Source: Candidatus Gastranaerophilales bacterium (GTDB lineage: Bacteria; Cyanobacteriota; Vampirovibrionia; Gastranaerophilales; Gastranaerophilaceae). From it: a stretch of DNA of 35,570 nt. Under the pieces are notes generated by a model. That model was not told where the DNA came from. It was given only the letters and a program-made list of their open reading frames with translations, and made no database searches. Both the position numbers and the translations under genes were made by a program. Positions within the stretch are counted from its first letter, which is position 1. Every line of letters begins with the position of its first letter. The stretch lies in assembly GCA_944323405.1 (NCBI GenBank), contig CALUSJ010000124.1, positions 1 through 35,570 on the forward strand. The letters are read 5' to 3'. Positions 9,833-33,073 of the stretch are shown piece after piece.

Positions 9833-11560
9833 ATGAAAGATGCAGTTGCTAACAAAATTGTTATAGCCGAACGTGATAATATTGCTGCGGTTATGGAAAA
9901 CGGAAAAGTTGCAGAGTTTTACGTACATAGAGGCGAAATAATCTTAGGTGATGTTTACTTAGCGCAAGTTGAAAATATTTTACCCTCAATAGAAGCCGCA
10001 TTCGTAAATGTAGGTTCTGATAAAATGGGATTTTTACATGCTCAGGATGTTGCTGGAAAGGGTGCCTTACAGGACAAGCTAAAACCAAAACAAAAGCTGG
10101 TTGTTCAAGTTGTAAAAGAGCCTACAGGTCATAAAGGGCCTAGAGTAACGACAGAAATTTCACTTCCTGGAAGATTCTTGGTATTAATGCCAAATGAAGC
10201 AGGAATTAATGTCAGCAAAAAAATAACCTCCGCAAAAGAGAGAGCACGCTTAAAATCAATCGTCAATCTTTTAAAACCAGTTGGCGTAGGTATTATTGTA
10301 AGAACGGAAGCCGAAGGCCAAACAGAAGCTGATATTCAGGAAGATTTAGAAATTCTTCTTGAGAAATGGAACAACATAATTACTTCTGCCGAAAGTCTTA
10401 CTCCACCGAGTCTCTTATACAGAGATCAAGATTTATTATACAGAGTTATAAGAGAAGCCTGCAATGAAGAAACTCAAGAAATCATTGTTGATACAGCATT
10501 TGCGCTCAACAGGGTTCAGAATATACTTCAGAACTGGCATATGAATAAAAACATTAATGTGACTTTATACAAGGGATCTGAACCGCTTTTAGTCGCAATG
10601 GATATTCATAAAGAGATTAAAGCAGCTTTGCAAATGAAAGTTAATCTCCCCTCAGGCGGTTATTTATTCATTCAGACAACGGAAGCACTCACTGTTATTG
10701 ACGTAAACAGCGGTAAGTTTACAAACTCGGCCACTCAAGACGAAACTATTCTAAAAACTAATATAGAAGCTGTTCACGAAATCGCACGTCAATTACGACT
10801 ACGAAATATCGGCGGTATGATTATTATCGACTTCATTGATATGCTGTCTAGAGTTGATAAACTTACCATGATGGAAGAGTTAGAGCTTGCAATGGAAGCC
10901 GATAAAGCAAAGCCGCAAGTAGGTCAGCTTTCAGATTTAGGGCTTGTAGAAATGACTCGTCACCGTCAAGGGCAGGCTTTGAGTGAAATCTTTGCTAAAA
11001 GATGTCCGCATTGCCAGGGTAACGGCTATATAATGGAAGATTTGAAATTCGCTTCTGCGACTTCAGAAGGCGAGTACCGTGCAAAAGCGGCTAAAATTAA
11101 GCTTCCTATGGGCGGGAAAAAGAAATTTAATAACAAATTCAATAACAAACCTGAAAAAGAAGAAATTAAAGAACAGCAGCCGATGATTCAGGAGGAAAAG
11201 CTTGAAATAACAGAAAATCCTTCGGTTGTTGCTCAAGAAGAAGTGAAAGAACTTAAAGAAGAAAAAACAAAAGCTGCCAAAACTCGTGGACGCAGCAGAA
11301 AACTCAAGAAATCGGATGTCGCTGCTGAAAACTTAGCGCAAACTGTCATCAGTGAAGGAGCTGAAATTGCACCGATAATTGCAGAAGACGCTGACCTAAA
11401 CAAAGTTGATGAAGTTAAACCAGAATCTCCTGACGTTAAGCCGGAAGCTGAAAGCAATCAGGAAGAAGCTAAGACTAAAACAACAAAAAGATCACGGCGG
11501 CCAAACAGGAATTCTCAAAAAAGAACAAGAAAGACTGCAAATAAAGATGCTGAAGAATAA
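9833..11560 (+). CDS. rne: ribonuclease E/G family endoribonuclease
   Basis: Endonuclease initiating mRNA decay and rRNA/tRNA maturation. S1-type RNA-binding region about residues 35-120 (GDVYLAQVENILPSIEAAFV..., GFLHAQDV). Catalytic metal-binding aspartates are Asp290 (VIDVNSG) and Asp333 (IIIDFIDM), with the same 43-residue spacing as E. coli Asp303/Asp346. The zinc-link CPHC is at 391-394. Residues beyond about 400 form a short, disordered, Lys/Glu-rich tail ending in a strongly basic stretch (TKRSRRPNR, KRTRKTANK). This resembles the compact cyanobacterial RNase E, where a basic tail element binds PNPase. The start is ATG 9833 with AAGGA 11 bases upstream. Its last 14 bases overlap the next gene. 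It could be named rng instead; the tail favours rne. Confidence 0.93.
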   Translation: MKDAVANKIVIAERDNIAAVMENGKVAEFYVHRGEIILGDVYLAQVENILPSIEAAFVNVGSDKMGFLHAQDVAGKGALQDKLKPKQKLVVQVVKEPTGHKGPRVTTEISLPGRFLVLMPNEAGINVSKKITSAKERARLKSIVNLLKPVGVGIIVRTEAEGQTEADIQEDLEILLEKWNNIITSAESLTPPSLLYRDQDLLYRVIREACNEETQEIIVDTAFALNRVQNILQNWHMNKNINVTLYKGSEPLLVAMDIHKEIKAALQMKVNLPSGGYLFIQTTEALTVIDVNSGKFTNSATQDETILKTNIEAVHEIARQLRLRNIGGMIIIDFIDMLSRVDKLTMMEELELAMEADKAKPQVGQLSDLGLVEMTRHRQGQALSEIFAKRCPHCQGNGYIMEDLKFASATSEGEYRAKAAKIKLPMGGKKKFNNKFNNKPEKEEIKEQQPMIQEEKLEITENPSVVAQEEVKELKEEKTKAAKTRGRSRKLKKSDVAAENLAQTVISEGAEIAPIIAEDADLNKVDEVKPESPDVKPEAESNQEEAKTKTTKRSRRPNRNSQKRTRKTANKDAEE

Positions 11561-15694: not shown

Positions 15695-15771
15695 AATACA
15701 CATAAACTCCAAGTCTTTATATTTTTGTTATCGGCATAAATAAATAAAACTTTAGGCTCTTTTCTAAAATT

Positions 15772-15800
15772 TTTACAAAATTTAATAATCGTGATAAAAT
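15772..15800 (+). promoter_or_regulatory. promoter of aroA
   Basis: TTTACA (15772-15777), 17 bases, TAAAAT (15795-15800) with a TG extension (15792-15793). AAGGAGG follows at 15804-15810, so the 5' leader is very short. Confidence 0.65.
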
Positions 15801-26807: not shown

Positions 26808-28457
26808 TTAATTCATCAATGTCTGTGCAAATTTTAATGACTCATCCGTTATTTCGCCTCCTGCCAGTTCTGCAATCGCTTTCAATTTGTTATCCTCAGC
26901 AAGAACGGATATGTCTATACTTGTTTGCCCATCTTGGGTTTTCTTCACATAAAAATGTCTGTCAGACTTGGACGCTATTATTGCTTGATGCGTAATCATA
27001 ATTACTTGCATATATTCTGATAGTTCCTTCACTTCTTCTGCTACTGCTTGTGAAGTTTTGCCTGATATTCCAGTATCTATCTCATCAAAAATTACGGTAT
27101 CTATTTCGTCACTTTGTGCAAAAATAGTCTTTATCGCAAGCATGACACGTGATATTTCTCCGCCAGACGCAACTTTTGCGAGAGGCTTAAGCCCTTCCGA
27201 AATATTTGTGGAGATTAAAAACTCGACTTTGTCACTTCCATTAAGGTTCAATTCACACTTGTCAAAATGTATCTCAAATTTAACTTTAGGAAGCTCTAAT
27301 TTTTCCAATTTTTCTATGATTAGCGCAGAAAGTACTTTGGCATAATTTTTTCGTTCTACAGAAATTTCATCCGCCAAAACTTCCAATTGTTCATACAAAT
27401 CCTTTATTTCAGATTCCAGCTCCTCAATATTTTGAGTCGAAAACTCAATACTTTCCAGCTCTTTCTTTAAAGCATCTCCCTGCTGCATAACTTTTTCCAG
27501 CGTTCCGCCATACTTACGTTTGAGTTTATCCAATAAAAATAAGCGTTCTTGTATATTATTTATCCGCTCTTCATCGTTTTCTAAAGAACTTGAATACTCC
27601 CTCAAGCTTGACGAAATGTCTTTTAAGTTCTCTATTGTATCAACAAGCTGGTTTTCTACTGCCTCTAAAGAACCGTCCATTGAAACAGCCTTTGATAGAT
27701 TTGCTTTTATCTGCAAAAGAGCATCCAATATTGCGCCATCATCACCAGATATAGACCAATAAGAACTGCCGGTTAAATCTTTTAGCTTTTCGACATTTTC
27801 AAGTACTGCAAGCTCATTGTTTAGTTCCTCATCCTCTTTCTCTGAATTAAGCTGAGCTTCTTCTATTTCATTTACCTGAAATCGCAGAAAATCGATTTGT
27901 TCAGCAGTTTTGTCTGCTGAATTCTTCAATTGATTAAGCTTTTCTATTAAACTCTTATAGCGCAAAAACTCTTTTTTATAATTTTCTAATTTTTCTCCAC
28001 AAGTATTCTTGGAATAAGAATCTAATAATGTGATATGATATTTTGGCTGTAAAAAAGAATAAGTCTGATGCTGAGAATGGATATCTAGAAAAAGTTCCCT
28101 GAATTTTTTCATAAAATCCTGATTCACCAAGCATCCATTTACTCTTGAACGAGAAGCCGTCTGGGTTATCTCTCTTGAAAGAATTATCTCATCTTGAATG
28201 TTATCAATGCCATTCTTTTCAAATAAAGAGGTTAAATCCTGCTTTGTATTTATTATTGTAAGCTCTATTGTCGCTTTCTCGGCTCCTGTTTTGATAACTT
28301 CACGCCCGGCTTTTGCACCAAAGGCTATATCTATCGCATTTATTAAAATGCTTTTCCCAGCCCCGGTCTCACCTGTTATAATATTTAAACCCTTTGAAAA
28401 TTCTAATTCCAATTCGTCTATTAATATATAATTTTTTATAAATATCTTTGATAACAT
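26808..28457 (-). CDS. recN: DNA repair protein RecN
   Basis: SMC-like ATPase acting in double-strand-break repair. Walker A GETGAGKS at 29-36, with the following RecN segment NAIDIAFGAKAGREVIK. Conserved SQHQTYSFL is at about 128-136, two coiled-coil arms (about 155-225 and 325-385) flank the middle region, the ABC signature SGGE is at 431-434, and Walker B VIFDEIDTGISG is at 455-466 followed by ITHQA. The 549 residues are full length. The start ATG lies four bases after the TAG of the upstream TPR gene and has little ribosome-site sequence of its own, so translation is probably coupled. Confidence 0.96.
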   Translation of the reverse strand: MLSKIFIKNYILIDELELEFSKGLNIITGETGAGKSILINAIDIAFGAKAGREVIKTGAEKATIELTIINTKQDLTSLFEKNGIDNIQDEIILSREITQTASRSRVNGCLVNQDFMKKFRELFLDIHSQHQTYSFLQPKYHITLLDSYSKNTCGEKLENYKKEFLRYKSLIEKLNQLKNSADKTAEQIDFLRFQVNEIEEAQLNSEKEDEELNNELAVLENVEKLKDLTGSSYWSISGDDGAILDALLQIKANLSKAVSMDGSLEAVENQLVDTIENLKDISSSLREYSSSLENDEERINNIQERLFLLDKLKRKYGGTLEKVMQQGDALKKELESIEFSTQNIEELESEIKDLYEQLEVLADEISVERKNYAKVLSALIIEKLEKLELPKVKFEIHFDKCELNLNGSDKVEFLISTNISEGLKPLAKVASGGEISRVMLAIKTIFAQSDEIDTVIFDEIDTGISGKTSQAVAEEVKELSEYMQVIMITHQAIIASKSDRHFYVKKTQDGQTSIDISVLAEDNKLKAIAELAGGEITDESLKFAQTLMN

Positions 28458-28460
28458 ACC

Positions 28461-29600
28461 CTATTCGTCTTTGTCCTCTATATCTTCTTCATTATCATAC
28501 TCTTCCAATGCGTCATTATCAACTTCATCTTCTTCATCTTCATCATCATCTTCTGCTACTGCTTCATCATCTTCTTCTGCAAATTCAGACTCTTCAGACT
28601 CTTCAAACTCTTCTGGCTCTGCTGATTCTCCAGACTCTTGTTCTGGAATCTCTGTTTCAGGCTCTATTTCTTCTTTTCTGCCAAACTTCTCTTCTGCATA
28701 ATCAAATTCTTCTTGCACAGCTTCTTTTGGAAAAGTCAGTGTATAAGGATTTTTAAGTGCCGATTTTAATGCTGAATAGTATTCTTCTATTTGTCCTGTA
28801 TATTTATAAACCCGGGCAAGACAATAGTACAAATCGCCGTTTTCTTCCTTCTCAAGTCTCGTATGCAATATCTCCAGAATCTCTTCTATATCGCCCAGTT
28901 TTAAACAAATTTTCACAAGAAGCTTATATGCTTCAATATCTAAAGAGTTGTATTCTATTGTTTTTAATAAATAGTTTTTTGCTTCTTCAATATTACCTGT
29001 CTTATATTCTATTGATGCAAGATTAAAGTATGCCCAGCTATAATCAGGAGATATTGCCAAAACCTTTTGATAACTCTCTATTGCAAAATTCGTCAATCCG
29101 TCATTTTGATAAATATATCCTAAATAAAAATAAGCAAAAATATCCTTTGGATTGAGTTCAACTGCCTTTTGAAAACAATCAAGAGCCATATTTTTTTCCT
29201 GCTTGTTAAAATAACAAACCCCTAGATTAAAATAGCAATTCCCGTCTTTCGTATCTGTCTGCAAAACTTTTCTAAAAGCAGCAATTGCCTCATCCCACTC
29301 TTTTAAATCTACAAGAACTTCTCCTAAATTATAATAAAAATCCTCCTGAGGAGAGAGTTCTATGGCTTTTTGATAAACACGCTTTGCCTTATCAAAATCC
29401 TTCAGCTTTTCATAAACAATTCCAAGATTGTAATAGAGTTCGGCATCGTCTGGGAAATATTTAATCAAATATTTCAAATTTCCTTCTGCTTCTTCATTAA
29501 AACCGCTATTCACAAGCAAAATAGAAAGTTCCCGTCTTGCTTGAAAGTTTGAAGGATCTTTTTTCAAAATATTTTGAAGTGACTCAATTTCTTTATCCAT
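28461..29600 (-). CDS. TPR protein with acidic C-terminal tail, 379 aa
   Basis: About eight tetratricopeptide units fill residues 1-300, with classical W/Y-x-x-L-G ... A-x-x-x-x-K-A-L/I-x-x-x-P spacing (AELYYNLGIVYEKLKDFDKA, NCYFNLGVCYFNKQEKNMA, AYFYLGYIYQNDGLTNFA). The last 60 residues are almost entirely Glu and Asp with Ser/Ala, a disordered acidic tail. No signal peptide: cytoplasmic. It is a protein-interaction scaffold of unknown partner, co-transcribed with and almost touching recN. It appears leaderless: a TATAAT box ends six bases before the ATG and no ribosome site is present. Confidence 0.85.
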   Translation of the reverse strand: MDKEIESLQNILKKDPSNFQARRELSILLVNSGFNEEAEGNLKYLIKYFPDDAELYYNLGIVYEKLKDFDKAKRVYQKAIELSPQEDFYYNLGEVLVDLKEWDEAIAAFRKVLQTDTKDGNCYFNLGVCYFNKQEKNMALDCFQKAVELNPKDIFAYFYLGYIYQNDGLTNFAIESYQKVLAISPDYSWAYFNLASIEYKTGNIEEAKNYLLKTIEYNSLDIEAYKLLVKICLKLGDIEEILEILHTRLEKEENGDLYYCLARVYKYTGQIEEYYSALKSALKNPYTLTFPKEAVQEEFDYAEEKFGRKEEIEPETEIPEQESGESAEPEEFEESEESEFAEEDDEAVAEDDDEDEEDEVDNDALEEYDNEEDIEDKDE

Positions 29601-30278: not shown

Positions 30279-30707
30279 ATGAATAAAATTGCAAAAAAAT
30301 GGTATAGTACATTTAAAGCAATTCTGCCTTTTGCAGGGATGTTTGTTGTAATTGTCGCTTTTCATTTCACAGACTGTATCTTTTTCAAATTCTACCCCCC
30401 GATAGTCAATCTAGGCTTCTTTATAGTATTTTTCTCTTCAACATTTCAAGAAAAAACAGTCATACAAAAAATTGCACTCTCTATGGAACCCGATGCTAAA
30501 CCTTGGGTAATGAATTATACAAGAAAGCTGACTTATATATGGTCAGTATTTATGTTTATTAATTTCTTGATATCTTTTGCTACAATGTTCATGTCTGCTA
30601 AAATTTGGACTATTTATAACGGTTTTATATCATATTTACTTGTTGGTGCATTTTTTGGTATAGAATATATTATAAGAATATTGTTTAAGAGGAAGTATGA
30701 CGGCTGA
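30279..30707 (+). CDS. COG4648-like four-helix membrane protein
   Basis: 142-residue inner-membrane protein with four hydrophobic segments (about 13-31, 40-56, 83-103, 110-130) and the loop MEPDAKPWVMNYTRKLTYIWSVFMF. These characters match the COG4648 family of predicted membrane proteins, typically encoded next to AMP-ligase and dehydratase genes in aryl-polyene clusters, where its exact role is unclear. First gene of a four-gene operon: its end overlaps the ligase gene by 11 bases. I chose ATG 30279; the open frame extends upstream without a start signal, and the ATG has a -10 box at leaderless spacing. Assignment rests on composition, one loop and context. Confidence 0.7.
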   Translation: MNKIAKKWYSTFKAILPFAGMFVVIVAFHFTDCIFFKFYPPIVNLGFFIVFFSSTFQEKTVIQKIALSMEPDAKPWVMNYTRKLTYIWSVFMFINFLISFATMFMSAKIWTIYNGFISYLLVGAFFGIEYIIRILFKRKYDG

Positions 30708-32151
30708 TTTTTATAACTGTTTTTTTAGTAATAAATATGATGATAAAATTATTCTCAAAGATTCAAAACGAGAATATACTGTTGGTGATATAAAAAATCT
30801 TAAAAATATTGACAGCATAGAAAACTTCAATCTAAGATTCATAGCTTCTAATATCCACAAAATAATCTCCCACGCAGATAACGGGATATTTGAGTTTTAT
30901 ACAAGCGGTTCCAGTCATTCCGAAAGAAAATGCATAAAGAAAGTTCTTCAAAATTTTCTTGCAGAAGCCGAGGATGCTCAGAAAGCATTACACCTAGGAG
31001 AAAATCTAGAATTTATAACAACAACCACTCCTGAACACGCTTTTGGGTTTGTATTTTATTTTATATTTCCTCTAGATAAAAACTCTATCATTAACCTTGA
31101 AAGAATCAGCTACCCAGAAGAGATTAAAGTCAAAAATGCAATTTTAATAACCACACCATCTTTTCTTGAGTCATTAAGAAAATATAATGCAGAAGTAGAG
31201 ATAAAGCCCAAAGCGATTATATCTGCTGGTTCTAAACTCAAGGATGAAACATACAAATATGCAGAAACTATTGCTGAGCGGGTTATTGATATATACGGAA
31301 GCACTGAAACCGGCACGGTTGGATATAGAGAATCCTCTAAAGAGTCTCTCATTAAACTTTTTAATGGTATAAAAATTCTGTCACAAGAAGATAATGGAAC
31401 AAAACTCTCTACTATATACACAAAAGAAAACATACAAACAATAGGGGACAGAGTCAAATTACACGGAGATAAAATCGAACTATTGGGCAGATGTGACAGA
31501 ATACTAAAAATTCAAGAAAAAAGAATTTTAGCAGAAGATATTGAAGAAGAATTGAAGAAGAGCGAATTTGTCGAAGATTGTTATAATTTTGAACACGACG
31601 GGAAAATTGCCGCAGCTGTTATTCTTTCAGAAATAGGGAAAAATTTTATTATAGAACAAGGAAATATTGAACTTGTAAAAAGGCTTAAGAACGAATTGCT
31701 GCAAAAATTTGAAGTTGTTCCTCAAAGATGGAAATTTATTGATGAAATGCCTAAAAACAGCAGGGGAAAAATTGATGTTGAACAAATTAAAACTCTGTTT
31801 AATATCAATTTAAGCCTCCCGCTTGTTTTATCAAGAAAAATCGCAAAAGAATCGGCTGAATTTGAATTATGTTTTTTAAAAAGCAGTAATTTTTTTAGAG
31901 GACATTTTGATGGAATGCCGATTTTACCGGGTGTTGTACAGTTCTTTTATGCTGACTTTTTTATTAAAGAAGCTTTTAAAACGGATTGTCATTGCGGACA
32001 AATACGAAAGGTAAAATTCTCAAATATCATACAGCCAAATAAAATTCTTAAACTCAAGCTCAATAAAACTGATTCTAATATAAGTTTCAAATACGAAGAT
32101 AATGAAAAAACATATTCAAGCGGAATTTTCCCGATACAAAATTACTTATAG
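30697..32151 (+). CDS. acyl-AMP ligase fused to a hot-dog dehydratase domain (aryl-polyene type)
   Basis: Residues 1-370 are an adenylate-forming enzyme: phosphate loop YTSGSS (68-73), YGSTE (200-204), Gly250-Asp251, hinge GRCDRILKI (264-272), and catalytic-lysine motif PKNSRGK (Lys358). The N-terminal part is shorter than in typical acyl-CoA synthetases. Residues about 385-484 are a FabZ/ApeI-like hot-dog domain: RGHFDGMPILPGVVQFFYADFF (401-422), with His403 at the dehydratase position; the FabZ catalytic Glu is not obvious. In aryl-polyene clusters a ligase loads an aromatic acid onto an ACP and a dehydratase works on the growing polyene; fusing both in one chain fits. RBS AGAGGAAG. No ACP or ketosynthase is in the window. 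Confidence 0.8.
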   Translation: MTADFYNCFFSNKYDDKIILKDSKREYTVGDIKNLKNIDSIENFNLRFIASNIHKIISHADNGIFEFYTSGSSHSERKCIKKVLQNFLAEAEDAQKALHLGENLEFITTTTPEHAFGFVFYFIFPLDKNSIINLERISYPEEIKVKNAILITTPSFLESLRKYNAEVEIKPKAIISAGSKLKDETYKYAETIAERVIDIYGSTETGTVGYRESSKESLIKLFNGIKILSQEDNGTKLSTIYTKENIQTIGDRVKLHGDKIELLGRCDRILKIQEKRILAEDIEEELKKSEFVEDCYNFEHDGKIAAAVILSEIGKNFIIEQGNIELVKRLKNELLQKFEVVPQRWKFIDEMPKNSRGKIDVEQIKTLFNINLSLPLVLSRKIAKESAEFELCFLKSSNFFRGHFDGMPILPGVVQFFYADFFIKEAFKTDCHCGQIRKVKFSNIIQPNKILKLKLNKTDSNISFKYEDNEKTYSSGIFPIQNYL

Positions 32152-32160
32152 GAAATATTG

Positions 32161-32571
32161 ATGAAAAATATTACAACAAAAACTCAGATAAAAGTTGCAT
32201 TTTATGATTTAGACCCGATGAACATTGTCTGGCACGGAAATTATGTTAAGTATTTAGAGCAGGCAAGATGTGAATTTTTTAGCAAAATCAATTATACATA
32301 TAAAGACATGTATGATGATGGCATTATGTATCCTATTGCAAAAATGGATCTAAAATTCATAAAATCTGCAAGGTTTGAAGATAACTTAACAGTAGAATGT
32401 ATCTTAAAAGAACTTGAACCTGCTATTATTATTAAGTACAATATTTATACTAAGAATGAAAAAATTTTGAGTGCAAACAGCATGCAAATATGCGTGAACG
32501 CTAAAACTGGAGAGACTTTGTATAATGCACCAGAAAAACTTTTAAAATCAATCGAGGAATATAATGAATAA
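32161..32571 (+). CDS. acyl-CoA/ACP thioesterase, 4-hydroxybenzoyl-CoA thioesterase family
   Basis: Single hot-dog domain, 136 residues. The signature FYDLDPMNIVWHGNYVKYLEQAR (14-36) contains catalytic-type Asp16 and the D-x-D-x-M-x-x-V-x-H-x-N-Y pattern of the 4HBT/YbgC group. The remainder (YPIAKMDLKFIKSARFEDNLTVE) follows the fold. It hydrolyses or transfers acyl thioesters; in this operon it is likely the thioesterase companion of the ligase/dehydratase. ATG 32161 is nine bases after the ligase stop, with AGGA eight bases upstream. Its end overlaps the next gene by 8 bases. Confidence 0.9.
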   Translation: MKNITTKTQIKVAFYDLDPMNIVWHGNYVKYLEQARCEFFSKINYTYKDMYDDGIMYPIAKMDLKFIKSARFEDNLTVECILKELEPAIIIKYNIYTKNEKILSANSMQICVNAKTGETLYNAPEKLLKSIEEYNE

Positions 32572-33073
32572 ATTTTTAGGATTAATAATATTGTTATCAG
32601 CAGTTTCTTGTATATCAGTTAGCGGGAGTGTTTTTGAGCACCCTGCAAAGCTCGAAAATATTGCAGATGAAATCCCAAGATATGAAAATGTGTCTTGTAA
32701 ATTTACCCAGGAAAAAACACTACCTAAATCAGATATAATACTTAAATCTGCCGGGAATTTTAAATACGAAAAAGACAAAGGCGTCACTTTTTATACTATT
32801 TATCCTATAAAAAGTACTACGTCTTATACCAATAAAGAATATAAACATATTAACAACGTTATTTCAGCAATAACTAATAAATCATATTCCAAACTCGAAA
32901 AAGATTTCCAATTTTATTATGAAAGCGGCTGGAAGCTCGGACTTGTTCCTAAAAAGGACTCACAAGCACACAGTTATCTAAAATCCGTGGAGGTTGAAGG
33001 AAACAAAGATATGATTACTAAAATCGTAATCCTGACAGTCGATTCTGGGAAAACATCCATAAAATTTGAATAA
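32564..33073 (+). CDS. LolA-like outer-membrane lipoprotein carrier protein
   Basis: A secreted 169-residue protein: signal sequence MNKFLGLIILLSAVSCISVSGS, then the LolA-fold beginning IPRYENVSCKFTQEKTLPKSDIILKSAGNFKYEKDKGVTFYTIYPIKSTTSY. The F-x-Q-E-K ... S-x-G-x-F/x-Y-x-K-x-x-G order is the family signature. A Cys near the end of the signal is not in a convincing lipobox. LolA paralogues are regular members of aryl-polyene clusters, presumably carrying the hydrophobic product or a lipoprotein across the periplasm. Overlaps the thioesterase gene by 8 bases with GAGG as its ribosome site. Three bases separate it from the convergent HAD gene. Confidence 0.8.
   Translation: MNKFLGLIILLSAVSCISVSGSVFEHPAKLENIADEIPRYENVSCKFTQEKTLPKSDIILKSAGNFKYEKDKGVTFYTIYPIKSTTSYTNKEYKHINNVISAITNKSYSKLEKDFQFYYESGWKLGLVPKKDSQAHSYLKSVEVEGNKDMITKIVILTVDSGKTSIKFE

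Follow-up and report, generated by a model that had tools for sequence, protein, structure and literature searches.

Aryl polyenes (APEs) are yellow membrane pigments. Flexirubins are made with a tyrosine ammonia-lyase and dialkylresorcinol genes, and the flexirubin clusters of Bacteroidota contain related ketoreductase (KR), LolA, MMPL and ligase genes; they differ from the system described here, in which the ammonia-lyase is absent. Few bacterial lipid pigments are as widespread as APEs, which in E. coli have been linked to protection against oxidative stress and to biofilm formation (PMC8253772). In Acinetobacter baumannii, ApeH carries ApeI at its C-terminus, and the fused ApeI pairs with a separate ApeP (PMC8041823).

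The DNA analyzed here, referred to as the window (35,570 nucleotides), is the whole of contig 124 in a draft metagenome-assembled genome (1.76 Mb in 172 contigs, 80% complete) of an uncultured Candidatus Gastranaerophilales bacterium, from an order of Melainabacteria; the initial annotation, made from the window alone, had correctly guessed a Vampirovibrionia host. An APE pathway that is otherwise nearly complete is scattered over this genome in five pieces, one of which is formed by four genes of the window. With a probability of about 0.88, these four genes form one transcription unit of this pathway, which is spread over contig 124 and four other contigs after a former single cluster was separated by shuffling.

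Relative to the ape cluster of E. coli CFT073 (PMC8253772), whose gene letters we adopt, 15 of the 18 genes have orthologs here, and the E. coli orders C-D-E-F-G-H-I-K-L-M and O-P-Q-R are matched in relatives with intact clusters. In contrast to E. coli, the O-P-Q-R arm is divergent, a single gene combines H and I, J is shifted to the 3' end and lacks its glycosyltransferase half, ApeA and ApeN were not found near any cluster, and the genes of the window's genome occupy five contigs. The H-I fusion, the separate ApeP and the half-size CLF ApeC are shared with the A. baumannii APE system (PMC8041823, PMC8358021), which belongs to a different phylum and, unlike the present one, is clustered and has a LolB-like lipoprotein; the ligase-dehydratase fusion is thus not a novelty, having already been described in Acinetobacter (PMC8041823). 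Overall, the pathway is a known one, while its host group and its unusual layout over five loci both appear to be unreported. No report of APEs in this order or in Melainabacteria was found in our literature search, which lay outside subscription papers and antiSMASH databases. The range of the APE pathway is thereby extended to gut-dwelling, non-photosynthetic relatives of Cyanobacteria with few cultures.

The four genes of the window

The four genes are co-oriented and closely packed, with junctions formed by an 11-base overlap, a 9-base gap and an 8-base overlap. The open reading frames (Table 1) agree with the initial annotation on this packing and on the 484-residue fusion, as well as on the flanks, where a small gene precedes the cassette and a convergent HAD gene follows it. 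That annotation had also described the window as devoid of ketosynthase (KS), KR, ACP, acyltransferase and MMPL genes, and indeed no further APE gene was found there, nor any tRNA or Rfam family. The APE-type family assignment it proposed is borne out, each protein matching its own counterpart in E. coli CFT073.

Table 1. Coordinates of APE genes and other features (plain ranges are window positions)
Feature	Position	Strand	Details
ApeG-like COG4648 membrane protein (P0001)	30279..30707	+	142 aa; five predicted helices
ApeH-ApeI fusion (P0002)	30697..32151	+	484 aa; AMP-forming aryl/acyl-ACP ligase and ApeI-type hot-dog dehydratase
ApeK-like hot-dog thioesterase (P0003)	32161..32571	+	136 aa
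ApeL-like LolA-family protein (P0004)	32564..33073	+	169 aa
TPR-recN unit	26808-29600
ApeO (KS), divergent from ApeC (half-size CLF), ApeD, ApeE and ApeF	contig 112
ApeP, ApeQ, ApeR	contig 60
ApeM, MMPL exporter	contig 162
ApeJ-type LpxL-like acyltransferase	contig 159		matches C-terminal half of ApeJ
Sister-species fusion genes	L031:2715-4166; L032:13060-14511
4'-phosphopantetheinyl-transferase-like gene	L022:5202-5873; L024:13868-14539		overlaps MMPL gene on opposite strand
Intergenic motif (~75 bp)	15711-15790; L033:8899-8971; L031 near 7533; L027 near 14614; L130:8838-8897

For the COG4648 protein, the Pfam search gave no match and Foldseek returned nothing meaningful (best E 5) for its AlphaFold model, which is all-helical (pLDDT 88.8). 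It was matched to E. coli ApeG by hhalign (99.0%) and by BLASTP (31% over 127 aa, 3e-19), and it is kept across 17 genomes.

The fusion protein comprises a ligase part (about residues 1-370) and a dehydratase part (about 376-484), which hhalign relates to E. coli ApeH (99.9%, 5e-31) and ApeI (96.2%, 2.5e-9), respectively. The Pfam ApeI-like family was matched just above cut-off at residues 397-467 (1.6e-6), in line with the ApeI relationship suggested in the initial annotation for the hot-dog segment, and a profile search aligned residues 376-471 with PDB 6QSR_A (1.9e-9). The Pfam AMP-binding family was matched below cut-off at residues 57-210 (4.6e-6), and Foldseek recovered the ligase fold, for the ligase part only. 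The motifs TSGS, YGSTE and GHFDGMPILPG were all found. In the sister-species fusions listed in Table 1, PILAGVV replaces PILPGVV in the ApeI motif, with the GHF histidine retained.

The thioesterase matches Pfam 4HBT_2 (8e-11), belongs to the YbgC/FadM family by profile, contains the DLDPMNIVWHGNY motif, and matches E. coli ApeK (26%, 7e-26); its hhalign comparison with ApeK was set aside as circular, since E. coli ApeK was itself a member of that alignment. The LolA-family protein was matched to E. coli ApeL (hhalign 96.8%, 2.9e-10), to the LolA-family PDB chain 8t5j (profile, 3.7e-12) and, below cut-off, to the NCBIfam flexirubin LolA2 family (3.8e-6).

The remaining pathway genes, the proposed route and its head group

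A search of the whole genome identified a KS, a CLF, a second KS, a KR, a second dehydratase, two ACPs, acyltransferases and an MMPL exporter on the other four contigs (Table 1), with the KS/CLF, ACP and KR genes that the initial annotation proposed to look for located on contigs 112 and 60. The four genes are accordingly not the minimal cassette they had been taken for. Of the two possibilities raised at that time, the first, that the rest of the pathway lies elsewhere, was correct, whereas the second, a reduced system making another lipid, is not supported. The case also serves as a warning that cluster-based reading may miss or misread such pathways.

Each Ape-type protein of this genome pairs with its own E. 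coli CFT073 Ape counterpart as a one-to-one best match in BLASTP. The identities are 58% for R, 54% for Q, 53% for E and F, 32% for O, 31% for G, 30% for I, 28% for C, 27% for D and P, 26% for K, and 25% for H, M and J; the ApeL counterpart was matched by profile and is not part of this list. By hhalign, the KS and CLF of contig 112 match E. coli ApeO at 100% and ApeC at 97.5%, respectively. The ApeP-type protein matches the Pfam ApeP-like family above cut-off, and the best PDB profile matches are 6QSR_B for this protein and 6QSP_B for the CLF, so that both members of the ApeI/ApeP dehydratase pair (6QSR chains A and B) are recognized. The Cys/His active-site motifs of the KS, the serines of the ACPs and the GHF motif of the dehydratase were all found. 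The ApeJ-type protein has no N-terminal glycosyltransferase half. ApeN (LolB-like) and the lipoprotein ApeA, which E. coli has but which may not be defining for the family, gave no phmmer match in the cluster regions fetched. No ApeB methyltransferase was detected in this draft, which is 80% complete; the gene occurs in many relatives, including G030, where it adjoins J.

The genes present, their homologies, their joint retention and their dispersal are observed directly; the catalytic roles, the product, its head group and its membrane location are predicted from characterized homologs (PMC8253772, PMC8041823, PMC8358021). The ligase part of the fusion would adenylate an aromatic acid and load it onto the first ACP (ApeE-like), after which ApeO-ApeC and ApeR would condense malonyl units borne on the second (ApeF-like). 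The keto group would be reduced by ApeQ, and the conjugated polyene would then arise through removal of water by ApeP, whose gene lies on another contig, acting with the ApeI domain of the fusion. ApeK may edit the acyl-ACP or release it, attachment of the chain to a lipid would fall to ApeD and the ApeJ-type acyltransferase, and ApeG, ApeM and ApeL are the candidates for moving the product towards the outer membrane.

Neither a UbiC-type chorismate lyase (PF04345) nor an aromatic ammonia-lyase (PF00221) was detected in this genome (80% complete) or in any APE-positive relative. With both starter routes absent, the aryl acid that would supply the head group would have to come from the gut or from another lyase, or else be a different compound. 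It is possible, if somewhat doubtful, that Gastranaerophilales make an APE-like envelope lipid whose head group arises by neither of the tested known routes, with operons scattered by genome-wide shuffling yet co-selected, in which case cluster-based mining would undercount such pathways.

The same absences would fit the use of these enzymes with a different starter, such that a non-aromatic or unusual acid derived from diet or gut gives a polyene lipid that lacks the customary 4-hydroxyphenyl head, and the divergence of the ligase (25% identity to ApeH) and its short N-terminus point in the same direction. However, the best profile for the ligase is 4-coumarate-CoA ligase (8e-18, below cut-off), the remaining enzymes are orthologous to APE enzymes, and 4-hydroxybenzoate from the gut or another chorismate lyase family could provide the aryl acid, so that we regard a change of starter as unlikely.

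A flexirubin/dialkylresorcinol-type pathway in place of a plain APE pathway is very improbable. Although the NCBIfam flexirubin LolA2 and FlxB families appear among the profile matches, both fall below cut-off; tyrosine/histidine ammonia-lyase is absent, no DarA/DarB-like genes were recognized in the clusters read, and the gene order is that of the E. coli ape cluster.

Occurrence and gene order among relatives

An APE pathway that was once a single cluster is consistent with the arrangement in relatives. In G044, G039, G025 and G010 the genes form one cluster in which R-Q-P-O is divergent from C-D-E-F-G-HI-K-L-M-(B)-J, and the order within each arm equals that of E. coli. Among the 80 best named loci, 32 contain the whole set, with ApeP undetected in a few; many others end at a contig edge, and several are truly split inside long contigs. 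The fused H-I gene was found in 87 of 386 genomes sampled from the phylum, all from two families of this order. The fusion gene is present in 17 of 57 relatives, mostly within longer clusters, and since the four-gene order, which the initial annotation suggested looking for in related genomes, is kept there, the arrangement is not due to chance.

Some intact clusters include a 4'-phosphopantetheinyl-transferase-like gene overlapping the MMPL gene (Table 1), which the E. coli cluster lacks. One genome record (L151, L152) contains a partial D-to-M cluster twice on different contigs, reflecting either duplication or assembly redundancy.

The 17 relatives with the fusion are the same 17 that have the CLF, the MMPL protein and the J-type acyltransferase, and ApeP was found in 16 of them; none of the other 40 relatives gave a strong match to any of these. 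Presence changes state only three times on a RecN tree of the genus, and hence the 17 genomes do not represent independent events and the statistical weight of their agreement is modest. This co-retention gains weight from the window's genome and the sister species G007 and G030, where all five pieces occur without loss at 60-91% identity.

A decaying pathway, midway to loss, would account for the dispersed genes, the missing ApeA, ApeN and ApeB, and the restriction to part of the genus, but it is hardly probable given that all open reading frames are intact with active-site motifs in place, that all five pieces keep 60-91% identity across the sister species, and that none of them has been lost in the three dispersed species. 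That the four genes make up a reduced system which yields a separate product without the other pieces is highly improbable: they do stand alone on their contig here and in G007 and G030, but the CLF, MMPL and acyltransferase genes accompany the fusion in every relative searched that bears it, the fusion-free relatives are without strong matches to them, and the ApeI domain requires an ApeP partner, which is present.

The layout is not a contig-break artifact, as the window and G007 both have the cassette in the interior of a contig, and in G030 at least 9 kb of unrelated DNA follows it; only the P-Q-R piece begins near a contig end (296 bp upstream). Contamination during binning is unlikely, because the sister species carry the same five pieces, which are thus not stray contigs.

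The dispersal into five pieces agrees with a loss of gene order throughout the genus and is not special to the APE pathway. At none of the five sites do the window's genome, G007 and G030 have a flanking gene in common. The 20 kb between window positions 10001 and 30000 correspond to 11 blocks, all of which lie apart in seven genomes of the same genus; by our count, 0 of 70 block-to-block adjacencies were seen to be retained on one contig, although some are hidden by contig ends. This loss occurred despite DNA identities of ~70-87% within the genus. In contrast, tight units persist, for instance TPR-recN, which stays together in most genomes, so that operons are kept while the order between them moves. 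The breakpoints of the ape cluster also vary, being D|E in G021 and G043, O|P in G003, and O|P, F|G, L|M and M|J in the clade of the window. Genus-wide shuffling would thus have split a cluster like that of the relatives, with the order inside each operon and the pathway itself kept. An inserted cassette was rejected, as no mobile genes were recognized beside the pieces and shuffling is just as strong elsewhere in the window. An intact pathway distributed over five loci offers a natural test of the need for clustering.

An intergenic repeat of ~75 bp (Table 1) was considered as a cause of the shuffling and rejected as too rare in the loci examined. It consists of CGGCAT-n8-AAACTTTA, then TTTACAAA, and is located in the window upstream of an aroA-like gene and in G003 between F and G of the ape cluster. 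Its core has 4 matches in 0.5 Mb, as opposed to 0 in shuffled sequence, and it is possibly a shared promoter or regulator site.
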